64,000 bases of DNA from the NCBI RefSeq assembly GCF_900110255.1, contig NZ_FODD01000015.1, forward strand, positions 1-64,000, in the 5' to 3' direction. Source of the stretch: Actinacidiphila rubida. Its GTDB lineage: Bacteria; Actinomycetota; Actinomycetes; Streptomycetales; Streptomycetaceae. The position numbers were made by a program, and so were the translations under genes. Below are positions 648 through 21,246 of the stretch, in pieces. Under the pieces are notes generated by a model that saw only the letters and a program-made list of their open reading frames with translations, was not told the DNA's origin and did no database searches. Position 1 is the first letter of the stretch; every line of letters begins with the position of its first letter.

Positions 648-1226
648 CTAGCGCAACCGGGCCATCAGCGCGTGCTCGACGAGGGTGATGAGCGCGCTCT
701 TCGCCTCCGCACGGTGCCGGGCGTCGGTGACGATGATCGGCGCCTCGGGGCCGATCTGCAGGGCCTCGCGGACCTCCTCGGGGGCGTACGGCTGGTGGCC
801 GTCGAAGCCGTTGAGGGCGATCACGAACGGCAGGCCGCTGTTCTCGAAGTAGTCCACGGCGGGGAAGCAGTCCGCCAGCCGGCGGGTGTCGACCAGCACG
901 ATCGCGCCGATCGCGCCGCGCACCAGGTCGTCCCACATGAACCAGAACCGGTCCTGGCCGGGTGTGCCGAACAGGTAGAGGATCAGGTCCTCGTCCAGCG
1001 TGATACGGCCGAAGTCCATGGCCACCGTGGTGGTGGTCTTGTCCTTGACGTGGCTGAGGTCGTCGATCCCCGCCGAGGCGGCGGTCATCACGGCTTCCGT
1101 GCGCAGCGGATTGATCTCCGACACGGCACCGACGAACGTGGTCTTGCCCACGCCGAATCCGCCCGCCACCACGATCTTCGCGGAGGTGGTGGCGCGGGTC
1201 GGACCGCTAGAGCTTCCGAAGTCCAC
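648..1226 (-). CDS. cvnD: Conservon Ras-like GTPase CvnD (first conservon)
   Basis: A 192-residue small GTP-binding protein. The P-loop GGFGVGKTT is at about residues 22-30, a G3-like FGTPGQ at 86-91 and a G4 NGFD at 139-142. The canonical DxxGQ is replaced by FGTPGQ, as in the conservon GTPase group. The GTG at 1226 is chosen because GAAAGGG lies about 7 nt upstream; a TTG at 1241 is possible but has no such site. The start overlaps the end of cvnC by 20 bp, which implies translational coupling. In Streptomyces, conservon proteins form a membrane complex that resembles a receptor/G-protein system. By eye the DNA is about 95% identical to the second copy at 5881-6486. Confidence 0.92.
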   Translation of the reverse strand: MDFGSSSGPTRATTSAKIVVAGGFGVGKTTFVGAVSEINPLRTEAVMTAASAGIDDLSHVKDKTTTTVAMDFGRITLDEDLILYLFGTPGQDRFWFMWDDLVRGAIGAIVLVDTRRLADCFPAVDYFENSGLPFVIALNGFDGHQPYAPEEVREALQIGPEAPIIVTDARHRAEAKSALITLVEHALMARLR

Positions 1227-1761
1227 TGAGCACCCTTTCAAGCAATGTCACGTCTGGCTGGCCGCCGGCCGCCGCGTCGCCACCCGGCTGGTGGATGGCG
1301 ACGAGACCCGCCTCGGCGAGGTCGGCCACGAGGATCCGCACCACACCGAGCGGGATGGTCAGCAGCGCGGAGATCTCCGCGATCGACTTGACCTCCCGGC
1401 ACAGCAGGCAGATCCGCTGGTGCTCGGGCAGCTGCCCGCGCAGCCGATCGGGCTCGGCGGTGGTGCTGACCAGCGCTTCGATGGCCAGCTGGTAGCGCGG
1501 CCGGGTCCGGCCGCCGGTCATGGCGTACGGGCGCACCAGGCCCGAGGGGGTACGTGAGCGGCCGCCCGCACCGGAGCCGCCCTGCGCCCCCGCCTGCCCG
1601 CCGCGCGCGGTCTGCGGCGGCGGTGCCTGCGGTGGCGCGAACGGCTGGACGCGCGGCTGGCGGTACCCCGGCTCCGGACTGGGCGCCGAGGGGAAGTTGT
1701 ACGGGTTCAGAGGCGGCTGATGCTGACCGCCGTACGGATCTCCGCCGGGGGACGTGCTCAC
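1207..1761 (-). CDS. cvnC: Conservon DUF742 protein CvnC (first conservon)
   Basis: A 184-residue DUF742 protein. The first ~75 residues are Pro/Gly/Gln-rich and probably disordered. The conserved part begins at LVRPYAMTGGRTRP, continues through LAIEALVSTT and LPEHQRIC, and contains a winged-helix-like segment (IAEISALLTIPLGVVRILV). It ends LLERVLSGLRKL. The GTG at 1761 is preceded by GGAGGAGGA and gives the N-terminus VSTSPGGDPYGG; the frame stays open further upstream but without a ribosome-binding site. The gene lies between cvnB and cvnD, and its end overlaps cvnD by 20 bp. The role is inferred from the family: an adaptor in the CvnABCD complex. Its long disordered N-terminus is missing from the second copy. 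Confidence 0.9.
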   Translation of the reverse strand: MSTSPGGDPYGGQHQPPLNPYNFPSAPSPEPGYRQPRVQPFAPPQAPPPQTARGGQAGAQGGSGAGGRSRTPSGLVRPYAMTGGRTRPRYQLAIEALVSTTAEPDRLRGQLPEHQRICLLCREVKSIAEISALLTIPLGVVRILVADLAEAGLVAIHQPGGDAAAGGQPDVTLLERVLSGLRKL

Positions 1762-1835
1762 GAGTCCTCCTCCTGGTTCGCTGCGGCGCCGGCCGGACCC
1801 GCTGAAGCGTCCGGGCCGGCGCCTTCGCCCGTGCG

Positions 1836-2258
1836 TTAGTTGAGCAGGCTGCCCTGCAGTTCGGCCCGCAGATCGGGCGTGAGTACGGAGCCCGCTCGGT
1901 CGACGAGCAGGGCCATTTCGTAGCCGACGAGGCCGATGTCGCACTCGGGGTGGGCGAGTACGGCCAGGGAGGAGCCGTCGGAGACGGACATGATGAAGAG
2001 GAAGCCGCGTTCCATCTCCACGACGGTCTGGTTGACGGTGCCGCCCTCGAAGATGCGGGATGCTCCGGACGTGAGGGAGGTCAGGCCGGAGGCGACGGCT
2101 GCGAGCTGGTCTGCGCGGTCGCGGGGGAATCCGTCGGACATCGCGAGCAGCAGGCCGTCGGCGGAGACCACCACCGTGTGGGACACCCCGGGGGTGTTGT
2201 CCACGAAGTTGGTGATCAACCAGTTCAGGTTCTGTGCCGCCTGGCTCATCGGACTCAA
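1836..2258 (-). CDS. cvnB: Conservon roadblock/LC7 protein CvnB (first conservon)
   Basis: A 140-residue roadblock/LC7-domain protein, the class of small dimeric scaffolds that regulate Ras-like GTPases. Typical features are the N-terminal helix LNWLITNFVDNTPGVSH, the core strand VVVSADGLLLAMSDG and the C-terminal HPECDIGLVGYEMALLVDRAG. The likely start is TTG 2258, with AGGAG 6 nt upstream; ATG 2249 is the alternative. The TAG of cvnA is immediately followed by this TTG, so coupling to cvnA is probable. Bases 1897-2271 match the second cvnB (7019-7393) with only 3 differences, far closer than the flanking cvnA genes, which suggests recent gene conversion. Confidence 0.92.
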   Translation of the reverse strand: MSPMSQAAQNLNWLITNFVDNTPGVSHTVVVSADGLLLAMSDGFPRDRADQLAAVASGLTSLTSGASRIFEGGTVNQTVVEMERGFLFIMSVSDGSSLAVLAHPECDIGLVGYEMALLVDRAGSVLTPDLRAELQGSLLN

Positions 2259-5200
2259 CTAGCGCTCCTGGTTCTGGGGGCCGCCGAATCGGCTGTCGGT
2301 GGCCTGTCCGTTCGTGTCAGTTCCAGCAGTGCGCCCTTGCTGGACGCCACGTCGCAGATTACTCAACCTGCCGCGGACATCCTCCGGTGCGCGGGAGACC
2401 TGTGGGCCACCCTGCGGGGTCTGCGTCGCGGTGCCCGGGACCAGGTTGGCCTGGGGGACCCGCCGTGGCAGGCCGGAGGGGGTGACTCCGCCTGCCTTGG
2501 GCTCACGGGACTGCTCGGCCCGCTGCCAGTGCTCGTCGTTGGTGGACCGCCAGCCGTCGTCGCCCTGGGAGGGGTCCGCCGGCTGATCGGTGGGCTGGTG
2601 CTGAGGCTCCGGGGTCTCCTGAGCGGCCTGTGACTGTGGTGAGTTGGACGGCCGGCGGTCGCGGCGCGGCAGGCCGGCGTCCGTCAGCGAAGGCGAGACT
2701 ACGCTCTCCTCCGGCTGCTCGGGGAGCGGCGGGGCGGATTCCGTTACCTGGGCTTCGGCTCCGGGCCAGTCGTCGTGGGCGGACCCGTAATCGGAGAACT
2801 CCGCCTGGTGAGGGGCCTGTTCGTAACCCTGCGGGTCGTAGCCGCCGTTCGAACCGTCGTTCCGATAGGACGGGGTCCCCTCGTACGGCTGCTCGAAGAA
2901 ACCGTTCTGCTCCCGGCCGTCGACCGGGTAGCCCGGCGCGGCGTAGCCCTCCTGCGCCGCGTACGCACCCTGCTCGGCGTAGCCGTTCTGCTCCGGGTAG
3001 CCGTTCTGGCCGGCGTACCCGGGCTGCTGGTCGTAGCCCGCCTGCTGGTCGTACGCGGCCGGCTGCTCGTAGCCCTGCTGCTGCGGGAAGGACCCGTCGA
3101 ACCCGGCCCCCCCGACACCGCCGGCACCGTACGCGTCGTCCGTCAGGCCGCCCTCGGCGCCCGGCTGCGGCTCGTCGCGGCGGTCCGCGGCGGCCGCCTC
3201 CAGCTGCGCCCGGCGCTCCTCGCGGAGCAGCGAGCGGCCCACCGGGTCCAGCGAACCGTCCTGGGAGGCGCCGCCCTGCTCGTAACGGGAGTCGTCGAAG
3301 CCCAGCTCGGCGGCGGAGCGGTGGTCGAGGCGGCCGAACTCCTGCTGGGCCGCCTGCTCGTGCTCCGGCACGATCCGCGAGACCGTGAAGTCCTGGTCGT
3401 CGCCCGTGTACTCCTCGCCGCCGCCGCCGTGCGTGATCGGCTCGGGCAGCATCACGAGCGAGGTGGTGCCGGCCTGCTCGCCGGACGGCCGCAACTGCAC
3501 CCGGATGCCGTGCCGCTGGGACAGCCGGCCGACCACGAACAGACCCATCCGCTTGGCGATCTCGACGTCCACCGTCGGCGGGTTGGCGAGCTTGCGGTTG
3601 ATGTCCGCGAAGTCCTCGGCGGTGAGGCCGATGCCGCGGTCGTGGATCTCGACCATGACCCGGCCGTCGGGCAGCCGCGTCGCGGTGACCCGCACCTTGG
3701 TCTGCGGCGAGGAGAACGTCGTGGCGTTCTCCAGCAGCTCGGCGAGCAGGTGCACCAGGTCGGTGACCGCGCTGCCGTGGATGTCGGTCTCCGGGATGCC
3801 GACCAGCTCGATGCGGGCGTACGCCTCCACCTCGGAGGCGGCCGCGCGCAGCACGTCCACCAGCGGCACCGGCTGGTTCCACTGGCGGCCGGGCTCCTCG
3901 CCGGCCAGGACCAGCAGGTTCTCGCCGTTGCGGCGCATACGCGTCGCGAGGTGGTCCATCTTGAAGAGGTTCTCCAGCTGGTCCGGGTCGCCCTCGTTGT
4001 TCTCGAGGTCGGTGATCAGCGTCAACTGCCGCTGGATCAGGCCCTGGTTGCGCTGGGAGAGGTTGGTGAAGATCGCGTTGACGTTGCCCCGCAGCAGGGC
4101 CTGCTCGGCCGCCAGCCGGACCGCCTCGCGGTGCACCTGGTCGAAGGCGCGGGCGACCTCGCCGATCTCGTCCTGCGTGTTGATCGGGATCGGCGCGACC
4201 TGGGTGTCGACCCGGCCCGGGTCGGTCCGCGACAGCTGGTCGACCAGGCTGGGCAGCCGGGTCTCGGCGATGTCGAAGGCCGCCGAGCGCAGCCGCCGCA
4301 TGCTGCGGGTCATCGTGCGGGCCATCATGGCGGCCACGATGAAGGCGAGGATCAGCGCGATCACCACGATCGCGGAGTTGATCAGGGCGTCCTGCTTGGC
4401 GTGCGAGGCGATGCCGGCGGCGTCGGTGGCGGCCTCGTCGGCCAGCGCGACCTCGACCGAGCGGTAGGCGTCGAACGAGAGCGTGGAGGCCGCCATGTAG
4501 GACTCGGGCGTGATGCCCTCGGCCTTCAGCGCCTTGGTGGTCAGCAGCGGGTTGGCGATGTCGGCGACCATCTTGGTGAGGTCCGGCGGGACCACGAACG
4601 GCACGTGGGCGTCGGCGGCCTTCTGCTGCGCGTCGGTGATCCCGGTCTGGCCCTTCTTCTCCGCCAGGTCCTGCGCGGCCTTCAGCCGGGCCTGGTCGGC
4701 CGCCGTGCCGCCGCCCTCGTACTCCTCGACCGCGATGCCCTGCAGGTACTGGTACGAGCCCAGGGCCGTCTTCTGCAGCGCCAGCTCCTGCGGCGAGGCG
4801 GGCTTGCCGACCAGGATGTGCATGCCGATCGACCGGGTCAGCGACTCGGCGGCCTTGGACAGCGACCCGGCGTACAGCGTGCGGCCGTAGGCGGCGCCGT
4901 TGCTGGTGCCGAAGCCCAGCTCGTTGGCCAGCTCCATCAGCGGGTGCTGGATCCTGACGTACCACTCCTCGGTCTGCACGCCCGAGAGCTGCCGTGTGAA
5001 GGCGGCCTTGCGCAGCGAGGCGAGCTGCGGCTCGACCGTGCGGAAGTTGGTCATCCGGCGCTTGAGGTCGGCCTCGTCCGGGATGTGCAGGGCGGCCGCG
5101 TCGAAGGCCCGGGCGGCGGCGTCGGTGGCCGCGTAGGCCGCGCTGACCGACGCGTCGTTGCGCTTGCCGGCGAGCAGCGGAACCACCGAGACGTCCCGCT

Positions 5201-5528
5201 CGTCCTCGATCGCGTTGCTGTAGGTCGCCGCGGCCCGCACCAGGTTGGCGGTCCGCACGGCGTCGTCGGCCTGCTGCCAGGTGTCGACCGAGCTCTTCAC
5301 CCGGAAACCGCCGAAGACGAGGGCGACGAGCACGGGGATGAGGAGGATCGCGTTGAGGCGGGTGGCCACCCGCCAGTTGCGCATGCTGAACCGGCCGCCC
5401 GGATCGGGCAGTGCGGGAGCCTCGGCGGCGGCCGGCGACGAAGGAGAGCTCCCCGGTCGCTCCGGCGGCGTGAAGTTCCCCCGCGGGCCCTGTGGGGTAC
5501 CCGCTTCTACTCGCCTGGTGTTCCTCAC
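2259..5528 (-). CDS. cvnA: Conservon sensor histidine-kinase-like protein CvnA (first conservon)
   Basis: About 1089 residues. A first membrane segment follows MRNWRVATRLN and precedes a ~300-residue extracytoplasmic nitrate/nitrite-sensor-like helical domain. A second membrane segment (SAIVVIALILAFIVAAMM), a HAMP linker, an H-box-like DHLATRMRRNGENLLVLAG, an N-box (HLLAELLENATTFSSP) and G-boxes (HDRGIGL, RMGLFVVGRLSQRHG) follow. About 320 low-complexity residues rich in Y, Q, G and E come next, and the last ~85 residues form a conserved tail (GVTPSGLPRRVPQANL and DVRGRLSNLRRG). The start is uncertain: GTG 5528 (VRNTRRVEAG, GAGAGG upstream) is preferred over TTG 5558. First gene of a cvnABCD operon; no response regulator is adjacent. 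Confidence 0.9.
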   Translation of the reverse strand: MRNTRRVEAGTPQGPRGNFTPPERPGSSPSSPAAAEAPALPDPGGRFSMRNWRVATRLNAILLIPVLVALVFGGFRVKSSVDTWQQADDAVRTANLVRAAATYSNAIEDERDVSVVPLLAGKRNDASVSAAYAATDAAARAFDAAALHIPDEADLKRRMTNFRTVEPQLASLRKAAFTRQLSGVQTEEWYVRIQHPLMELANELGFGTSNGAAYGRTLYAGSLSKAAESLTRSIGMHILVGKPASPQELALQKTALGSYQYLQGIAVEEYEGGGTAADQARLKAAQDLAEKKGQTGITDAQQKAADAHVPFVVPPDLTKMVADIANPLLTTKALKAEGITPESYMAASTLSFDAYRSVEVALADEAATDAAGIASHAKQDALINSAIVVIALILAFIVAAMMARTMTRSMRRLRSAAFDIAETRLPSLVDQLSRTDPGRVDTQVAPIPINTQDEIGEVARAFDQVHREAVRLAAEQALLRGNVNAIFTNLSQRNQGLIQRQLTLITDLENNEGDPDQLENLFKMDHLATRMRRNGENLLVLAGEEPGRQWNQPVPLVDVLRAAASEVEAYARIELVGIPETDIHGSAVTDLVHLLAELLENATTFSSPQTKVRVTATRLPDGRVMVEIHDRGIGLTAEDFADINRKLANPPTVDVEIAKRMGLFVVGRLSQRHGIRVQLRPSGEQAGTTSLVMLPEPITHGGGGEEYTGDDQDFTVSRIVPEHEQAAQQEFGRLDHRSAAELGFDDSRYEQGGASQDGSLDPVGRSLLREERRAQLEAAAADRRDEPQPGAEGGLTDDAYGAGGVGGAGFDGSFPQQQGYEQPAAYDQQAGYDQQPGYAGQNGYPEQNGYAEQGAYAAQEGYAAPGYPVDGREQNGFFEQPYEGTPSYRNDGSNGGYDPQGYEQAPHQAEFSDYGSAHDDWPGAEAQVTESAPPLPEQPEESVVSPSLTDAGLPRRDRRPSNSPQSQAAQETPEPQHQPTDQPADPSQGDDGWRSTNDEHWQRAEQSREPKAGGVTPSGLPRRVPQANLVPGTATQTPQGGPQVSRAPEDVRGRLSNLRRGVQQGRTAGTDTNGQATDSRFGGPQNQER

Positions 5529-5590
5529 TGGACCAACAACCTCTCGGCGACGGCGCAACGACGACGGCCGTTCCTACTCTCGGGTTCTGC

Positions 5591-5880: not shown

Positions 5881-6486
5881 CTACTTCAGCCGGGCCAGCA
5901 GCGCGTGCTCGACGAGGGTGATGAGCGCGCTCTTCGCCTCCGCCCGGTGCCGGGCGTCGGTGACGATGATCGGCGCCTCGGGGCCGATCTGCAGGGCCTC
6001 GCGCACCTCCTCCGGCCGGTACGGCTGGTGGCCGTCGAAGCCGTTGAGGGCGATCACGAACGGCAGGCCGCTGTTCTCGAAGTAGTCCACGGCCGGGAAG
6101 CAGTCCGCCAGCCGGCGGGTGTCCACCAGCACCACGGCGCCGATCGCGCCGCGCACCAGGTCGTCCCACATGAACCAGAACCGGTCCTGGCCGGGCGTGC
6201 CGAACAGGTAGAGGATCAGGTCGTCGTCGAGCGTGATGCGGCCGAAGTCCATGGCCACCGTGGTGGTGGTCTTGTCCTTGACGTGGCTGAGGTCGTCGAT
6301 CCCCGCCGAGGCGGCGGTCATCACGGCCTCGGTCCGCAGCGGGTTGATCTCCGACACGGCACCGACGAACGTGGTCTTGCCCACACCGAAGCCGCCCGCG
6401 ACCACGATCTTCGCCGAGGTCGTGGACCGCATCTGCGGCGCACCGTACGCCTGCTGCGGTTGCGGCCTAGAGCTTCCGAAGTCCAC
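5881..6486 (-). CDS. cvnD: Conservon Ras-like GTPase CvnD (second conservon)
   Basis: A 201-residue paralogue of the GTPase at 648-1226, with the same G1 (GGFGVGKTT), G3-like (FGTPGQ) and G4 (NGFD) motifs. It is longer by a short N-terminal insert rich in P and Q (RPQPQQAYGAPQ). The GTG at 6486 has GAGAGGG upstream and overlaps cvnC by 20 bp, exactly as in the first conservon. By eye the core is about 95% identical to the first copy in DNA, with differences clustered around 770-800 and its counterpart near 6005-6030. The two GTPases are therefore nearly interchangeable in sequence, and specificity is more likely to lie in the CvnA sensors. A terminator follows at 5780-5818. Confidence 0.92.
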   Translation of the reverse strand: MDFGSSRPQPQQAYGAPQMRSTTSAKIVVAGGFGVGKTTFVGAVSEINPLRTEAVMTAASAGIDDLSHVKDKTTTTVAMDFGRITLDDDLILYLFGTPGQDRFWFMWDDLVRGAIGAVVLVDTRRLADCFPAVDYFENSGLPFVIALNGFDGHQPYRPEEVREALQIGPEAPIIVTDARHRAEAKSALITLVEHALLARLK

Positions 6487-6874
6487 TGAGCACCCTCTCA
6501 AGCAGTGTCACGTCAGGCTGGCCGCCTGCCTCGCCGCTGCCTGGCTGGTGGATCGCCACCATGCCGGCCTCGGCCAGGTCGGCCACGAGGATCCGGGCCA
6601 CGCCGAGCGGAATGGCCAGCAGGGCGGAGATCTCCGCCACCGACTTGATCTCTCGCGTCAGGTGGCAGATCCGCTGGTGTTCCGGGAGGAGTCCCGCGTA
6701 CTGGGCCGGGTCCGCAGTCGTGCTGACCAGGGCCTCGATGGCGAGCTGGTAGCGGGGCCGGGTACGTCCACCGGTCATGGCGTAGGGCCGCACCAGCGGC
6801 TGGTCGCCTTCCACCCCGTACGGCGCGTGGTGGGACGCGCCGTACGGGCCCGGCGAGGCGGGTGGCGGGGTCAT
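6467..6874 (-). CDS. cvnC: Conservon DUF742 protein CvnC (second conservon)
   Basis: A 135-residue DUF742 protein starting at ATG 6874, with GGAGG 7 nt upstream. It shares LVRPYAMTGGRTRP, LAIEALVSTT, LPEHQRIC and the ending LLERVLSGLRKL with the first copy. It has only ~25 residues before the conserved domain, against ~75 in the first copy, so the disordered N-terminus is variable. It lies between cvnB and cvnD and overlaps cvnD by 20 bp. As in other conservons it probably bridges the roadblock and GTPase components; this is family knowledge rather than something visible in the sequence. Confidence 0.9.
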   Translation of the reverse strand: MTPPPASPGPYGASHHAPYGVEGDQPLVRPYAMTGGRTRPRYQLAIEALVSTTADPAQYAGLLPEHQRICHLTREIKSVAEISALLAIPLGVARILVADLAEAGMVAIHQPGSGEAGGQPDVTLLERVLSGLRKL

Positions 6875-6957
6875 GAGGGTCCTCCGTGTCCGGGCAGTGC
6901 TATCGCTGGTGCGGAATTACGGGAACGTGCGGGTGACTCGGGCAGGTGCCGGGTCGG

Positions 6958-7380
6958 TCAGTGCATGAGGCTGCCCTGGAGCTCCGCGCGGAGGTCCGGG
7001 GTGAGTACGGCGCCTGCCCGGTCGACGAGCAGGGCCATTTCGTAGCCGACGAGGCCGATGTCGCACTCGGGGTGGGCGAGTACGGCGAGGCAGGAGCCGT
7101 CGGAGACGGACATGATGAAGAGGAAGCCGCGTTCCATCTCCACGACGGTCTGGTTGACGGTGCCGCCCTCGAAGATGCGGGATGCTCCGGACGTGAGGGA
7201 GGTCAGGCCGGAGGCGACGGCTGCGAGCTGGTCTGCGCGGTCGCGGGGGAATCCGTCGGACATCGCGAGCAGCAGGCCGTCGGCGGAGACCACCACCGTG
7301 TGGGACACCCCGGGGGTGTTGTCCACGAAGTTGGTGATCAACCAGTTCAGGTTCTGTGCCGCCTGGCTCATCGCACTCAA
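6958..7380 (-). CDS. cvnB: Conservon roadblock/LC7 protein CvnB (second conservon)
   Basis: A 140-residue roadblock/LC7 protein, almost the same as that at 1836-2258. Visible protein changes are few (for example SAM for SPM near the N-terminus, SCLAV for SSLAV, and the last residues SLMH for SLLN). The start is TTG 7380, directly after the cvnA TAG, with AGGAG upstream; ATG 7371 is the alternative. DNA identity over 7019-7393 is about 99% (3 differences in 375 bp, including silent sites), while the last ~60 bp of the gene differ clearly. Such patchy identity between paralogues points to gene conversion. The family partners and regulates the Ras-like CvnD. Confidence 0.92.
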   Translation of the reverse strand: MSAMSQAAQNLNWLITNFVDNTPGVSHTVVVSADGLLLAMSDGFPRDRADQLAAVASGLTSLTSGASRIFEGGTVNQTVVEMERGFLFIMSVSDGSCLAVLAHPECDIGLVGYEMALLVDRAGAVLTPDLRAELQGSLMH

Positions 7381-10300
7381 CTAGCGCTCCTGGTGGTTCG
7401 TGCCGAAGCCACGGCCGTCGGTGCCGCCGCCGGCCTGCCGGCCTTGCTGGATACCCCTGCGGAGGTTGGTCAGACGTCCGCGCACGTCGTCGGGGGAACG
7501 CGAGATCTGCGGTCCGTCCGTCGCCGTCTGCTGTTGCTGCGCCCCGCCGGCCACCAGGTTCGCCCTGGGGACGCGGCGCGGCAGTCCGGACGGCGTGACC
7601 CCGCCGGCCGAGGGTTCCCTGATCTGCTCCGCCCGCTGGCGCAGTGCGTCGTTGGGTGAGCTGCGCCAGTTCGGCGTCTCCCGCGGCAGCGGCTGTGCCA
7701 CCGGCGCGTTCGGCGCCTGCACGGACGGCTGCGGGCCCGTCGTACGGCCCGGGGTGCCGGGCGCGGGACGGTCGTTGTGCACCGGGCGCTGCGGAGGCGC
7801 GGTGCGGCCGACCGGGCGCGACGGCGGGGCCTGCTGGCCACGCGCGCCCGGAGCGCCCGGGGTTCCGGGCTCGACGTGGATCTGCTGCATCCGCTCGGCC
7901 TGGCCGGTGCGGAACCAGTCCGACTCGATCGAGGAGAAGATCGGCGTCGGCTCGTCCCCGCGGGTCGGGGCCGGCGGCAGCGCCATCGGCTCGGCGGCCG
8001 GCGGCAGTTGCTGCTCCTGGCGCGACGCGGGCGCGTGGCGCTGCGGCGCCGGCTGCTGCATCGGGGCCTGGGGCTGTACGGGGGCCTGCGGCTGGGGCGG
8101 CGCCGGGTACGCGCCGGTGCCCTGGCCGCCGAGGTCGGGCAGGCGGTGCGAGCCGGTGCCGTACTGGTCCTGGTTCCCGAGGTCGGGAAGCCGCTGGGTG
8201 CCGTTGGCGTACGGGTCCTGGGGGCTCTCCTGGCCGTTCGGGGTCCAGCCCGGGGTGCCCTGCGGGCCGCGGTGGCCGCGGTGCGGCAGACCACCGGGAC
8301 GGCCGCCCTGCTGCGCCGGGAACTGCCCGGTCTCCTCGGCCCTGATCGCCGGGATCTGCGCGGTGTCGCCGGGACCGCCCTGACCGTACGGGCCGGGCTG
8401 GCCGTTGTGGCCGCCCTGCCCCGGGCCCTGCTGTACCGGGAACTGCCCGGTGCCGTACGGGTCCTGGGGGCCGTTGCCGTGCATGCCCTGGCCGCCCTGC
8501 GCCCAGCCGCCGCCCTGCGGGCCCTGCGGGCCCTGCGGTCCACGCGGGCCGCCGCCCTGCGGCGGGTACTGGCCGTGCTGGCCGGTCGGCGCGAAGTCGT
8601 CGTCACGGACCGGCGGGAACTGCGCGGTGTCGCCGGGACCGCCCTGCGGGCCCTGCGGGACCGGGTACTGGCCGGTGTCGCCCGGGCCGCCCTGGCCCTG
8701 GCGCGGCGACGGGCCCGGCCGGCCGCCGAAGACGTCGGAGCGGAAGCCGCCGGGGCCGGTGCTCTGCGGCTGCGGGGGCGGGAAGCCGCCGCCCTGCGGG
8801 CCGCCGGGACGGCCGCCCATGCCGTTCGCCGCGGGCTGTCCGGGGTGGCCGGGCTGTCCGGGCTGTCCAGGGTGGTTCGGCTGCTGGTGGCCGCCCTGCG
8901 GGCCCTGCTGGGCGCCGAACAGGTCGCCGGGGCCGCCGGGACGGCCGTGGGCCGGGAAGTCGGTGCGCTGGCCGTGGCCGGTCTCGTCGAAGGCGTCGAA
9001 CGCCCCCGCGTCGACCTCCTCGTGGCCGCGCGGGGTGTCCTGGCCGCGGTCGTCGGGGAAGCCGCCCTGCGCGTTGTCCTGCGCCGCCCAGCGCGGTCCG
9101 CCGCCCTGCTGTCCGTTGCCGGGACCGGCCGGGGCACCGGGACCGCCGGCGCCCGCGCCGATGGCCGGACGCTGCGCGCCGCGGCCCACCTGCTCGCGCT
9201 GCGGAGCCTGGCCCACCCGCGGGGTGTTGCCGAAGGCACCGGCGAGGCCGGTGGCGGCCTGGCCCGCCGGAGCGGCGGCCGGACGGGCGCCCGGGGCGCC
9301 CTTCTGGTTGGCGCCGCCCTGCGTGACGTCGACCGGGAGCATGACCAGCGCGGTGGTGCCGCCGGAGTCCGACGGGCGGAGCTGGATGCGGATGCCGTGT
9401 CGCAGGGACAGGCGGCCGACCACGAACAGGCCCATGCGGCGGGAGACGGAGACGTCCACCGTCGGCGGGGCCGCCAGGCGCTCGTTGATGTCGGCCAGGT
9501 CCTCGGGGGACAGGCCGATGCCGGTGTCGTGGATCTCGATCAGCACGCGGCCGTCGGGCAGCGAGTGACCGGTGACCCGCACCTTCGTCTGCGGCGAGGA
9601 GAACGAGGTGGCGTTCTCCAGCAGCTCGGCGAGGAGGTGGACGAGGTCGTTGACGATGCGGCCGGTGACCTCGGCCGTGGGCACGGAGGTCAGCTCGATC
9701 CGCTCGTACTGCTCCACCTCGGACGCGGCGGCGCGGAGCACGTCGACCAGCGGGACCGGGCGGGTCCACCGGCGGCCCGGCTCCTCACCGGCGAGGACCA
9801 GCAGGTTCTCGCCGTTGCGGCGCATGCGGGTCGCGAGGTGGTCGAGCTTGAACAGCGAGGACAGCTGGTCCGGGTCGGCCTCGCGGGACTCCAGTTCGGA
9901 GATCAGCGACAGCTGGCGCTGGATGAGGCCCTGGCTGCGGCGCGAGAGGTTGGTGAACATCGCGTTGACGTTGCCTCGCAGCAGCGCCTGCTCGGAGGCC
10001 AGCCGGACCGCCTCGCTGTGGACCTCGTCGAACGCGCGGGCCACCTGGCCGATCTCGTCGCGGCTGTTGATGCCGATCGACTCGACCGAGGTGTCGACGT
10101 CCTGCGGGTCGGACTCGGACAGCTGCTTGACCAGCTCGGGCAGCCGCTTCTGGGCGACGTCCTGGGCGGTCTGCTGCAGCCGGCGCAGCGAGCGCACCAT
10201 CGAGCGGGCGACGACGAAGGCGCCGACGACGGCCACGCCGAGGACGAGCAGGATGATCGCGCCGGAGATCAGCGCGGACTGCTTGGCCTCGTTCTGCAGC

Positions 10301-11421
10301 TGGAGCGCCTTCTGCTGCATCTCGTTCAGCAGCGAGCGCTCGATCTGGTTCATGGCCTGGATCTTGGTCTTGGCCGCGTCGTCCCAGTCCGGGTACGACA
10401 TCCGGACCTTCTCGATACCGGCCTGCGAGCGGAAGATCCGGTCCAGCACCGCGTTGTGCTCGGTGATGGTGTCGTTGCCGCCGTAGATCGGGGCGAGCAG
10501 CTCCTGGCTCTGCTGGTCGCCGTAGATCCCCTGGAAGCGGTCGAGCTCGGTGTTCTCGTCCGAGTGCGACCAGTAGACGGTCTGGTAGTCGTTCGAGCTG
10601 AGCGTGCCGCCCGTGGCGAACGCGGCGCTGATGACCGCGCGCTGGATCGACTCGTACTCCTTGGCCGACGAGAACGCGGCCAGGGCGCGGGTCGCCTGGA
10701 TCATCTCGTGGTTGTTGGTCGCCTGCGCCATGTCCTGCGACAGCGACAGCAGCGAGGTGATCAGGCCGTCGTACTGGGAGACGGTCTGGGCGATGCCCGA
10801 CTTCTCGGTGTACGCCTGGGTGCGGATCTGCTTGAGGTCGCTGAGCTGCGTGCCGATCGACACCAGGTTGGCCCGGACACCGCGGTAGACGGAGTCGGTG
10901 GCCTGGACGTCGTCGGTCGCGTTCTTGTAGAGCGACAGCTCCCGGTCGGTCGTCTCACGGGAGGCGGCGATCGCGTCGTTGTTGGTCTGGCCCGACGCCA
11001 GCGGGCCGGCCGAGCTGTCCCGCTCCTCCTGGAGCGCGGCGGCCAGGTCGGTCGCGTGCTCGGTGATGTCGGTCAGCGTCTTCATGCGCTCGAGCTGGTT
11101 GATGTTGTCCAGCGAGCTCTTGATGCTCAGACCGCCGAGCGCGCCGGCGGTGACCACCGGCAGGGCGAGCAGGGAGACGAGTCTGGTGCTGATGCGCCAG
11201 TTGCGCATGGCTATTCGGGGGCCGGGCTTCCCGTCCAGGCCGGTGATCCGGCCCGCCGCCTCCATGCCGCTGGGCGTGCTCGTACGTCCGGGGGCCGCAG
11301 CGGTCCCCGGCGTGGCGGTTCCGGAGTCGGCCGCAGCTTGCGTGGAACCGCTCGCGGTCCCACCGGGCTGCTGCTCCGGGTCACCCGCAGCGCCGCTGTC
11401 CCTCTTGAAACGTCCCTGCAC
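7381..11421 (-). CDS. cvnA: Conservon sensor histidine-kinase-like protein CvnA (second conservon)
   Basis: A 1346-residue sensor from GTG 11421 (GAGG about 11 nt upstream). Order: disordered N-terminus of ~70 residues; MRNWRISTRLVSLLALPVV leading into the first membrane segment; an extracytoplasmic nitrate-sensor-like helical domain; a second membrane segment (LISGAIILLVLGVAVVGAFV); HAMP; DHLATRMRRNGENLLVLAG; N-box HLLAELLENATSFSSP; and G-boxes HDTGIGL and RMGLFVVGRLSLRHG. A linker of roughly 500 residues, extremely rich in G, P and Q, leads to a conserved tail (GVTPSGLPRRVPRANLV, DVRGRLTNLRRGIQQGR). The kinase core resembles the first CvnA, but sensor domain and linker are clearly different, so a different signal is likely. 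Any ligand is unknown. Confidence 0.9.
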   Translation of the reverse strand: MQGRFKRDSGAAGDPEQQPGGTASGSTQAAADSGTATPGTAAAPGRTSTPSGMEAAGRITGLDGKPGPRIAMRNWRISTRLVSLLALPVVTAGALGGLSIKSSLDNINQLERMKTLTDITEHATDLAAALQEERDSSAGPLASGQTNNDAIAASRETTDRELSLYKNATDDVQATDSVYRGVRANLVSIGTQLSDLKQIRTQAYTEKSGIAQTVSQYDGLITSLLSLSQDMAQATNNHEMIQATRALAAFSSAKEYESIQRAVISAAFATGGTLSSNDYQTVYWSHSDENTELDRFQGIYGDQQSQELLAPIYGGNDTITEHNAVLDRIFRSQAGIEKVRMSYPDWDDAAKTKIQAMNQIERSLLNEMQQKALQLQNEAKQSALISGAIILLVLGVAVVGAFVVARSMVRSLRRLQQTAQDVAQKRLPELVKQLSESDPQDVDTSVESIGINSRDEIGQVARAFDEVHSEAVRLASEQALLRGNVNAMFTNLSRRSQGLIQRQLSLISELESREADPDQLSSLFKLDHLATRMRRNGENLLVLAGEEPGRRWTRPVPLVDVLRAAASEVEQYERIELTSVPTAEVTGRIVNDLVHLLAELLENATSFSSPQTKVRVTGHSLPDGRVLIEIHDTGIGLSPEDLADINERLAAPPTVDVSVSRRMGLFVVGRLSLRHGIRIQLRPSDSGGTTALVMLPVDVTQGGANQKGAPGARPAAAPAGQAATGLAGAFGNTPRVGQAPQREQVGRGAQRPAIGAGAGGPGAPAGPGNGQQGGGPRWAAQDNAQGGFPDDRGQDTPRGHEEVDAGAFDAFDETGHGQRTDFPAHGRPGGPGDLFGAQQGPQGGHQQPNHPGQPGQPGHPGQPAANGMGGRPGGPQGGGFPPPQPQSTGPGGFRSDVFGGRPGPSPRQGQGGPGDTGQYPVPQGPQGGPGDTAQFPPVRDDDFAPTGQHGQYPPQGGGPRGPQGPQGPQGGGWAQGGQGMHGNGPQDPYGTGQFPVQQGPGQGGHNGQPGPYGQGGPGDTAQIPAIRAEETGQFPAQQGGRPGGLPHRGHRGPQGTPGWTPNGQESPQDPYANGTQRLPDLGNQDQYGTGSHRLPDLGGQGTGAYPAPPQPQAPVQPQAPMQQPAPQRHAPASRQEQQLPPAAEPMALPPAPTRGDEPTPIFSSIESDWFRTGQAERMQQIHVEPGTPGAPGARGQQAPPSRPVGRTAPPQRPVHNDRPAPGTPGRTTGPQPSVQAPNAPVAQPLPRETPNWRSSPNDALRQRAEQIREPSAGGVTPSGLPRRVPRANLVAGGAQQQQTATDGPQISRSPDDVRGRLTNLRRGIQQGRQAGGGTDGRGFGTNHQER

Positions 11422-20646: not shown

Positions 20647-21246
20647 GTGAACAAGGCGCAGCTCGTAGAAGCGATTGCGGACAAGGTCGGCGGCCGCCAG
20701 GCCGCCGGCGACGCGGTTGACGCGGTTCTCGACGCGATCGTCCGCGCGGTGGTCGGCGGCGACCGGGTCTCGGTCACCGGGTTCGGCTCGTTCGAGAAGG
20801 TCGATCGTCCCGCCCGCTACGCCCGCAACCCCCAGACCGGGGAGCGGGTCAGGGTCAAGAAGACCTCCGTGCCGCGGTTCCGCGCGGGCCAGGGCTTCAA
20901 GGACCTGGTCAGCGGCGCGAAGAAGCTTCCGCGCGGCGGCGAGGTCTCCGTCAAGAAGGCCCCCAAGGGCAGCCTGAGCGGCGGCCCCTCGACCACCGCC
21001 CGGACCACCACCAAGAAGGCCGCGGCGAAGAAGGCCACCGCCAAGACCGCCGCCGCGAAGAAGACCACCGCCAAGAAGACCACGGCGAAGAAGACCACCG
21101 CCGCGAAGAAGACCACGGCGAAGAAGACCACGGCGAAGAAGGCGACGGCGAAGAAGGCCGCCGCCAAGAAGGCCCCGGCCAAGAAGGCCACCGCCAAGAA
21201 GGCCCCGGCCAAGCGCGCCACCCGCAAGCGCGCCGCCGCCAGGTGA
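20647..21246 (+). CDS. hupS: HU-family nucleoid protein with lysine-rich tail (HupS)
   Basis: A 199-residue protein. Residues 1-~92 form a normal HU domain ([42 protein letters not shown] and a DNA-binding arm around [12 protein letters not shown]). The rest is a tail of about 100 residues made of repeated K-K-x-x-A-K / TAKKTTAKK units, like the histone H1-type tails of HupS/DdbA in Streptomyces. It compacts the nucleoid, notably in spores. GTG 20647 has a good ribosome-binding site, and the promoter is at 20568-20596. The tail is coded by a near-repetitive AAG-rich stretch (21010-21240), so its length may vary between strains. Confidence 0.95.

Follow-up and report, generated by a model that had tools for sequence, protein, structure and literature searches.

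Tandem conservons and their near-identical cvnB genes

The window analysed in this study is a 64,000-nucleotide stretch of Actinacidiphila rubida DNA (contig NZ_FODD01000015.1, positions 1 to 64,000), and our subject is a pair of conservons within it whose cvnB genes are almost identical. Both conservons are complete and lie in tandem on the minus strand, in direct orientation; they are designated unit U (5881-11421) and unit D (648-5558). In each unit, the genes follow the conservon order on one strand, with a sensor kinase (cvnA), a roadblock/LC7 protein (cvnB), a DUF742 protein (cvnC) and a small GTPase (cvnD) (Table 1). Pfam matches in the units were to NIT-HAMP-HATPase (HATPase_c), Robl_LC7 (PF03259) and DUF742 (PF05331), and the match of cvnD was to ATP_bind_1 (PF03029), an unspecific nucleotide-binding model. 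Comparison with named relatives (80 loci, used for this purpose only) placed the genus in Actinacidiphila in its wider sense, and the nearest sensor, at 93%, was found in Streptomyces acidipaludis PLK6-54. Contiguous pairs of this kind, adjacent and co-oriented, were read in 28 genomes of the genus, one of them that of the window (G031 lacks the start of cvnA1), and in 51 further genomes of the family. The cvn1 and cvn2 units of S. coelicolor likewise stand in tandem in the order cvnA-B-C-D. Adjacent duplicated conservons have been noted earlier (PMC4316618), and the CvnA1 and CvnA2 proteins of S. coelicolor are SCO5544 and SCO5540 (PMC9739842). Units U and D probably correspond to cvn1 and cvn2 of that species. 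This assignment follows the gene order beside the acc genes in S. coelicolor.

Table 1. Coordinates in the window of the two conservons and of the homogenised cvnB tract
Feature	Coordinates	Strand	Description
cvnA1, unit U (cvn1 type)	7381..11421	-	NIT-HAMP-HATPase sensor kinase, long Gly/Pro/Gln-rich linker
cvnB1, unit U	6958..7380	-	roadblock/LC7
cvnC1, unit U	6467..6874	-	DUF742
cvnD1, unit U	5881..6501	-	small GTPase
cvnA2, unit D (cvn2 type)	2259..5558	-	NIT-HAMP-HATPase sensor kinase
cvnB2, unit D	1836..2258	-	roadblock/LC7 (Robl_LC7 PF03259)
cvnC2, unit D	1207..1758	-	DUF742; not homogenised
cvnD2, unit D	648..1241	-	small GTPase; probable partial homogenisation with cvnD1 at silent sites
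homogenised tract, cvnB2 (unit D)	1897..2251	-	355 bp, 2 differences from 7019-7373
homogenised tract, cvnB1 (unit U)	7019..7373	-	partner of 1897-2251
cvnB2 3' end	1836..1896	-	unhomogenised, paralogue-specific; fourfold sites alike 4/13
cvnB1 3' end	6958..7018	-	unhomogenised; pairs with 1836-1896
cvnA2 stop / cvnB2 leader	2253..2271	-	identical to 7375-7393

An earlier, sequence-only reading of the window had reported that 1897-2271 and 7019-7393 differ at 3 of 375 positions. This count was confirmed, the differing sites being 1965, 1969 and 2252; the two cvnB genes lie about 5.1 kb apart in direct orientation. The match had also been described as ending abruptly. Beyond the 3' edge (codons 118-137) only 4 of 13 fourfold-degenerate sites agree, and on the other side the ungapped match drops from 23/30 to 9/30 over about 60 bp inside cvnA. 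The tract had, however, been drawn too long at its 5' edge. Inclusion of the 19-bp leader (2253-2271) was rejected, since this leader is nearly identical between units also in seven genomes of the genus with unhomogenised cvnB; at 2252, the copies differ by G/C, and most genomes retain this old mark of the paralogues. The tract proper is therefore the shorter one given in Table 1.

When the two units of the window were compared at fourfold sites, identity was 154/255 for cvnA, 76/86 for cvnB, 40/70 for cvnC and 92/109 for cvnD. The cvnD pair had been put at about 95% identity by eye, and the measured value was lower, at 93.0%. Nevertheless, this pair exceeds every between-species cvn1-cvn2 value for cvnD in the 28 genomes of the genus (maximum 0.780), and its identity is higher than that of cvnA and cvnC together (Fisher p 1.3e-6); the longest identical run in the window cvnD, taken alone, was not significant (P 0.17). 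The window cvnD has probably been partly homogenised, as far as its silent sites indicate.

Translation of cvnB probably starts at a TTG (2258-2256), three codons before an ATG and with a GGAG 6 nt upstream, a choice made because of the GGAG-TTG spacing. With this start, residue 3 of CvnB is Ala in unit U and Pro in unit D (22 of 28 genomes of the genus; window 2249-2258 and 7371-7380), a paralogue mark that survives just beyond the converted tract.

Recurrent homogenisation of cvnB and cvnD

The sequence-only reading had proposed an old duplication followed by local homogenisation of cvnB, and had suggested that paralogues within a genome be compared with orthologues between species. At silent sites, the window cvnB copies (72/73 fourfold sites in the tract, codons 1-117) were closer to each other than either was to its orthologue in the nearest species (62/70 and 66/74), which supports the proposal. 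Moreover, cvnA and cvnC copies across the genus follow orthology and form two paralogue clades, whereas cvnB copies do not. In FastTree analyses the units were separated with support of 0.998 for cvnA and 0.916 for cvnC, and in no genome were a genome's own copies paired; for cvnB, a genome's two copies were sisters in 13 of 32 genomes. A tree constrained to group the U copies of cvnB was worse by 359 log units (approximately unbiased test, p 0.00066), and the cvnB tree requires 15 label changes. In IQ-TREE, cvnC and cvnD were split by unit at a support of 99 with one label change each; the cvnD split was absent from FastTree and reached 99.6 in IQ-TREE, the result that was used. Four genomes with split or mis-joined contigs (G003, G009, G011, G032) were left out of the within-genome tables and kept in the cvnB tree, and cvnD of G015 and G022 (wrong-side best match) and cvnA1 of G031 were also left out.

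For the window cvnB, chance is excluded: its identity exceeded that of cvnA and cvnC together with a Fisher p of 1.9e-7, and the longest identical run of variable fourfold sites was 53 (51 in cvnB), at the floor of the test (P<=0.0005, 2000 permutations); the shuffles mix genes of unequal mean identity, such that this test measures clustering and is not a calibrated probability. The same floor was reached in 23 of the 28 genus genomes; the run lay in cvnB in 21 of these and in cvnD in two (G024, G031), and at fourfold sites the test showed nothing in G008, G010, G013, G028 and G030. Thus, conflict among gene trees is limited to the converted gene, silent identity within genomes exceeds that between species, and the tract is bounded. 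These combined data support the conclusion that the window cvnB was homogenised by gene conversion, and that such conversion is recurrent in Actinacidiphila. The recent local homogenisation of cvnB that had been proposed is accordingly borne out, but it is recurrent rather than a single event, and in other lineages cvnD is affected as well. A foreign origin had been suspected for cvnB in the clade of G012, G025 and G033, where fourfold identity falls to 0.31; it is unsupported, as the nearest cvnB from outside the clade reached only 0.59-0.66.

The survey was extended to 51 further genomes of the family (38 with both copies among the matches listed and 13 from another search) and later to 20 more, picked among the matches listed and partly for equal copy matches or unusual strand; neither sample is random, and G451 and G264, each with one cvnB match in the stretch, were left out. 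Across the 51 genomes, the cvnB copies differ at 0 to 72 positions. A fourfold identity of at least 0.9 was found for cvnB in 2 and for cvnD in 5 of the 30 Streptomyces-like genomes designated g9, and for cvnB in 4 and for cvnD in all of the five g13 genomes. cvnC, which lies between cvnB and cvnD, stays diverged: among 97 genomes, only G043 (L039) reaches 0.9, with a cvnC fourfold identity of 0.93 and with cvnB, cvnC and cvnD all alike between units.

Loss of a unit was encountered as well. Two g13 genomes, G109 (L106) and G119 (L107), carry one conservon, in which a U-type cvnA and cvnC are followed by a D-type flank, the switch point lying at the cvnC/cvnD boundary or within cvnD. This switch point is what a deletion by crossing over between the direct repeats would be expected to leave, and the two genomes are read as natural losses of one conservon through the cvnC/cvnD repeats. 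Among the genomes with a single cvnB match, 4 of 15 were read; besides the two genomes with deletions, these were G049 and G037, each with one conservon of this class. G006 and G014 gave no CvnB match at 1e-30; a cvnD query recovered a fragment of the pair in G014, where it lies at the start of a contig, but gave no close match in G006. The draft contigs of G003, G009 and G032 end at or inside cvnB, and G011 was mis-joined there (L028-L035), with cvnA1-cvnB-cvnC2-cvnD2 on one contig and the rest of the middle on a contig of 5145 bp. Draft genomes will misreport the tandem conservon locus.

Silent-site composition and replication direction

Diverged copies (fourfold identity below 0.8) have an ordinary G+T content at fourfold sites (median 0.46 for cvnB and 0.51 for cvnD, standard deviation 0.045). 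When copies were scored as shifted if G+T lay beyond 0.12 of this baseline, 29 of 33 cvnB and 25 of 25 cvnD pairs at an identity of at least 0.9 were shifted, compared with 2/53 and 1/53 below 0.8, and diverged cvnC was shifted in 2/93. Pairs of intermediate identity (0.8-0.9; 11 for cvnB, 17 for cvnD) belong to neither class; with these included, shifted pairs below 0.9 number 6/61 for cvnB and 7/67 for cvnD (93 and 91 rows). In comparisons of independent pairs on the cvnA1 tree, made without G031, G100, G139 and G118 (cvnA1 outside the locus), all seven pairs for cvnB (7:0, median p 0.016) and all five for cvnD (5:0, median p 0.06) went the same way. Moreover, the shift dissociates doubly within one operon, G134 and G129 being shifted in cvnD only and window-type genomes in cvnB only; therefore, the signal tracks the homogenised gene rather than the operon.

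Within cvnB, the shift was also mapped to the tract; the tract and allele counts given here take both copies of each target and pool related genomes, and thus overstate the number of independent sites, which for the allele counts is about half as large. Where the cvnB 3' end has stayed diverged (six genomes: the window, G001, G002, G021, G022, G027), G/T was found at 184/876 sites in codons 1-117 and at 60/173 thereafter, whereas in seven genomes with cvnB homogenised to the end the counts were 238/1024 and 35/192. Two co-directional genomes had G/T at 198/280 sites in the tract and 15/55 in the 3' end, and seven unhomogenised genomes had 430/1028 and 92/203. The composition shift largely follows the converted tract.

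The shift takes two forms. In the A/C-rich class, T is near zero (the window cvnB has A 0.10, C 0.67, G 0.23 and T 0.00 at fourfold sites), and in the G/T-rich class, A is near 0.01-0.03. Fourfold A+T is 0.02-0.16 in A/C-rich cvnB, 0.03-0.30 in cvnB below 0.8 identity and 0.10-0.32 in G/T-rich copies. A rise in G+C whatever the strand, as GC-biased gene conversion would give, was not found, and a slight rise is possible in A/C-rich cvnB.

We then asked which allele prevails at sites where one ancestral copy carried A/C and the other G/T, with G134, whose cvnB is less homogenised, standing in for the ancestral pair. The homogenised head-on relatives G090, G123 and G127 carry A/C at 112 of 120 such mixed sites, and A/C was taken whether it came from U (54/60) or from D (58/60); in the less homogenised G063 and G073, with G134 as reference, A/C was found at 42/79. 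With G030 or G031 as reference, eight Actinacidiphila genomes take A/C at 348/384 or 345/384 mixed sites. The co-directional clade takes A/C at only 41/130, 47/136 and 33/118 over the three references G030, G031 and G028.

Replication direction was read from oriC, placed by dnaA, with nucS added as a local strand marker that agrees with dnaA in 25 of 27 genomes having both on the locus contig and fails in G056 and G073. For G079, G085 and G315 (dnaA <=2.1 kb from contig base 1) and G405 (dnaA at 136 kb), the direction assumes a circularised record. Among the first 49 genomes, dnaA and the locus share a contig in 41, of which 36 are head-on and 5 co-directional. The sign test covers shifted homogenised genes with a readable direction, omitting, for example, those of G442, G118, G039, G129 and G443. 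By dnaA alone, 23 head-on genomes were A/C-rich and none G/T-rich, and 4 co-directional genomes were G/T-rich and 1 A/C-rich; with nucS added, the counts became 29 to 0 and 5 to 1. For these latter counts, the association of fork direction and sign has a Fisher p of 1.8e-5, uncorrected for ancestry. In the clade of G012, G025 and G033, the locus is inverted and G+T is 0.61-0.71, although the relatives that surround this clade are head-on, its sister G027 having a G+T of 0.20. In addition, oriC was read in several genomes after the idea had arisen: the homogenised cvnD genes of G388, G154, G432, G421 and G405 were without exception head-on and A/C-rich, and in G221, which is co-directional (cvnB identity 0.80), G+T was 0.59. 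In G249, which is G/T-rich, the relation of nucS to the locus is flipped. Taken together, these data support, over few independent events, the view that the sign of the shift goes with fork direction, and the window locus is predicted from its composition to be head-on.

Elsewhere in the window, positions 1-534, past the 3' end of cvnD2, hold the end of a gene of presumed carboxyltransferase type, together with a small open reading frame that presumably resembles an acyl-CoA carboxylase epsilon subunit (compare S. coelicolor accB/accE). A tandem repeat with a period of about 90 bp and copies 79% identical lies at 21003-21213. The only self-matches of the window longer than 80 bp at an E value of 1e-10 were the conservon pairs, a repeat in the CvnA1 linker (8201-8702) and the 21003-21213 repeat.

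A proposed strand-polarised conversion bias and its alternatives

We consider it probable that an old tandem duplication has been followed by recurrent, biased conversion of cvnB and cvnD, in which fork direction sets the winning class of base. The data show that cvnB, or in other lineages cvnD or both, is homogenised repeatedly, that cvnA and (in all but one genome of 97) cvnC have diverged and stay untouched, and that the composition shift is confined to homogenised genes. By this account, at sites where amino (A/C) and keto (G/T) bases are opposed, one class would tend to win whichever copy carried it, and on the coding strand this would be A/C when the locus is head-on and G/T when it is co-directional. 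The bias may originate in heteroduplex that forms preferentially on one strand when recombination is linked to replication. A candidate agent is EndoMS/NucS, because keto versus amino is the classification that NucS substrates make: the preferred substrates are G-T, G-G and T-T mismatches, and NucS represses recombination between unlike sequences, which rises 10-fold at 90% identity in M. smegmatis without NucS (PMC8228993). A donated keto base meeting a keto partner would be rejected and a donated amino base would pass, such that the donated strand would become A/C-rich in its own sense and the coding strand A/C- or G/T-rich according to fork direction. nucS was present in every genome searched (22/22 and 53/53, two in both). 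That conversion of tandem paralogues becomes a directional drive on one strand through NucS, which is weak on A-C mismatches and others, is a tentative suggestion, to which we would give somewhat less than even weight.

Several observations speak against a bias of this kind or against its reach. The cut-offs of 0.9 and 0.12 were set after the data had been seen, and four of the 33 homogenised cvnB pairs (G054, G079, G405, G443) are unshifted. In G033, homogenisation reaches the cvnB 3' end (13/13), but the shift there is smaller (G/T at 12/27, compared with 104/136 in the rest of the gene). When G028 served as reference, the head-on-type genomes G007, G017 and G020 took A/C at only 73/113 mixed sites, compared with 49/80 in unhomogenised genomes. 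Where both reference copies carry G/T, A/C was likewise gained (98/172, compared with a baseline of 33/101), so new mutations, or a mutation bias linked to recombination, contribute. Orientation changes at least four times on the tree, and of three independent pairs, two agree, none opposes and one shows no difference. G056 is co-directional yet A/C-rich; there, the locus and nucS share a flipped orientation with respect to oriC, and a recent inversion is possible. The cvnD of G068 (head-on, identity 0.88) leans to G/T (0.59). Finally, in the window genome itself the locus shares its contig with neither dnaA nor nucS, and its whole-gene cvnB identity of 0.88 falls just outside the 0.9 class.

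Homogenisation might instead be kept by selection for a common CvnB, if two sensors feed one roadblock/GTPase pool, and this is the most credible of the alternatives, though we hold it somewhat short of an even chance. Across the 28 genomes of the genus, the units show no fixed difference at any of the 137 CvnB columns (numbered from the ATG), compared with 4 fixed columns in CvnD, 12 in CvnC and 179 in CvnA; the sole CvnB column that differs between units in at least 80% is column 136 (Met/Leu). In the seven least homogenised genomes, the CvnB copies are 96.4% identical (median) and orthologues 96.4 and 97.8%. Because the proteins are as alike as orthologues while silent sites have diverged, purifying selection holds CvnB alike even without conversion; it would suffice alone, with no need for selection on conversion itself, and homogenisation at silent sites is uninformative on function. 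Judged from the predicted proteins, conversion in CvnB is nearly silent. The inference of the sequence-only reading, that homogenisation implies a CvnB interchangeable between both sensors, does not follow from conversion itself. Interchangeability is nevertheless plausible, since no column is fixed differently and the proteins are orthologue-like. Selection of this kind is compatible with the biased conversion proposed above, as the reason that conversions are tolerated.

The main competitor to the NucS step is strand-biased mutation at recombining DNA: conversion would be unbiased, and the skew would come from replication-linked cytosine damage or from error-prone recombination synthesis, with NucS uninvolved. 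The movement of sites with G/T in both reference copies fits this explanation, as does the sign, which is that of ordinary replication skew, with a leading strand rich in G and T (PMC3174206). It sits poorly with the capture of A/C at 112/120 mixed sites whichever copy supplied it, and with a fourfold G+C of about 0.89-0.95 in cvnB of the A/C-rich genomes listed, which cytosine deamination alone would not give. We regard this explanation as possible but rather unlikely. Considerably less likely is codon selection, in which cvnB and cvnD are translationally selected and conversion merely spreads preferred codons. C-ending codons are indeed common in these GC-rich genomes (C 0.55 and G 0.40 in the window cvnA1), but the shift weakens or disappears where the 3' end of cvnB is not converted, and it is absent from cvnC of the same operon and from the unhomogenised member of cvnB and cvnD, and opposite in direction in 5 of 6 co-directional genomes.

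Collapse of two diverged cvnB copies by short-read assembly is very improbable, even though the window genome is in 111 contigs and draft contigs elsewhere break or are mis-joined at cvnB. It is excluded as a general cause because single-contig genomes show the same homogenisation: G023, G026 and G029 have 3, 5 and 4 differences in 411, the range being 0-5 with G090, also a single contig, and G116 (locus on a 5.9-Mb contig) included, and the window copies retain two internal differences. Least likely of all, and scarcely to be entertained, is that functional silent sites (an overlapping frame or RNA) keep the copies alike without conversion, for although long antisense frames exist (for example 1936-2262 on the plus strand), orthologous cvnB genes have median fourfold identities of only 0.65 and 0.71, with minima of 0.31 and 0.40.

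The biased conversion proposed here has partial counterparts in known systems. No report of conservon homogenisation by gene conversion was found in the literature searched. Paralogous regions of M. tuberculosis are likewise homogenised by gene conversion, and a preprint on them describes a recombination-linked T>C substitution bias and proposes reduced NucS repair during recombination (PMC13061034); in the present case, the asymmetry is one of amino and keto bases between strands, has a sign that goes with fork direction and extends over whole genes. In the available parts of the literature found on NucS and biased gene conversion, no strand polarity was seen. GC-biased gene conversion likewise biases allele transfer at silent sites, but here the contest is between C/A and G/T and is polarised by strand, and co-directional copies gain no G+C. 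At the Borrelia vls locus, a strong GC skew in a converting locus has been read as selected, possibly via G-quadruplexes (PMC11499132). In the conservons, unlike vls, both signs occur and follow replication direction, and because of this the skew looks like a result of conversion.

If this reading is right, the strand composition of repeats would record both the amount of recombination and the direction of replication, providing in bacteria with NucS rather than MutS/MutL a readable signature of recombination intensity and of heteroduplex strand choice. It would also offer a non-adaptive account of strand skew at other gene-converting loci, such as Borrelia vls, and would imply that codon bias in duplicated genes can stem from conversion instead of translation. 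For the conservons themselves, CvnB stands out as the part kept common to the tandem pair, joined by CvnD in some lineages, while the sensor CvnA and CvnC diverge.

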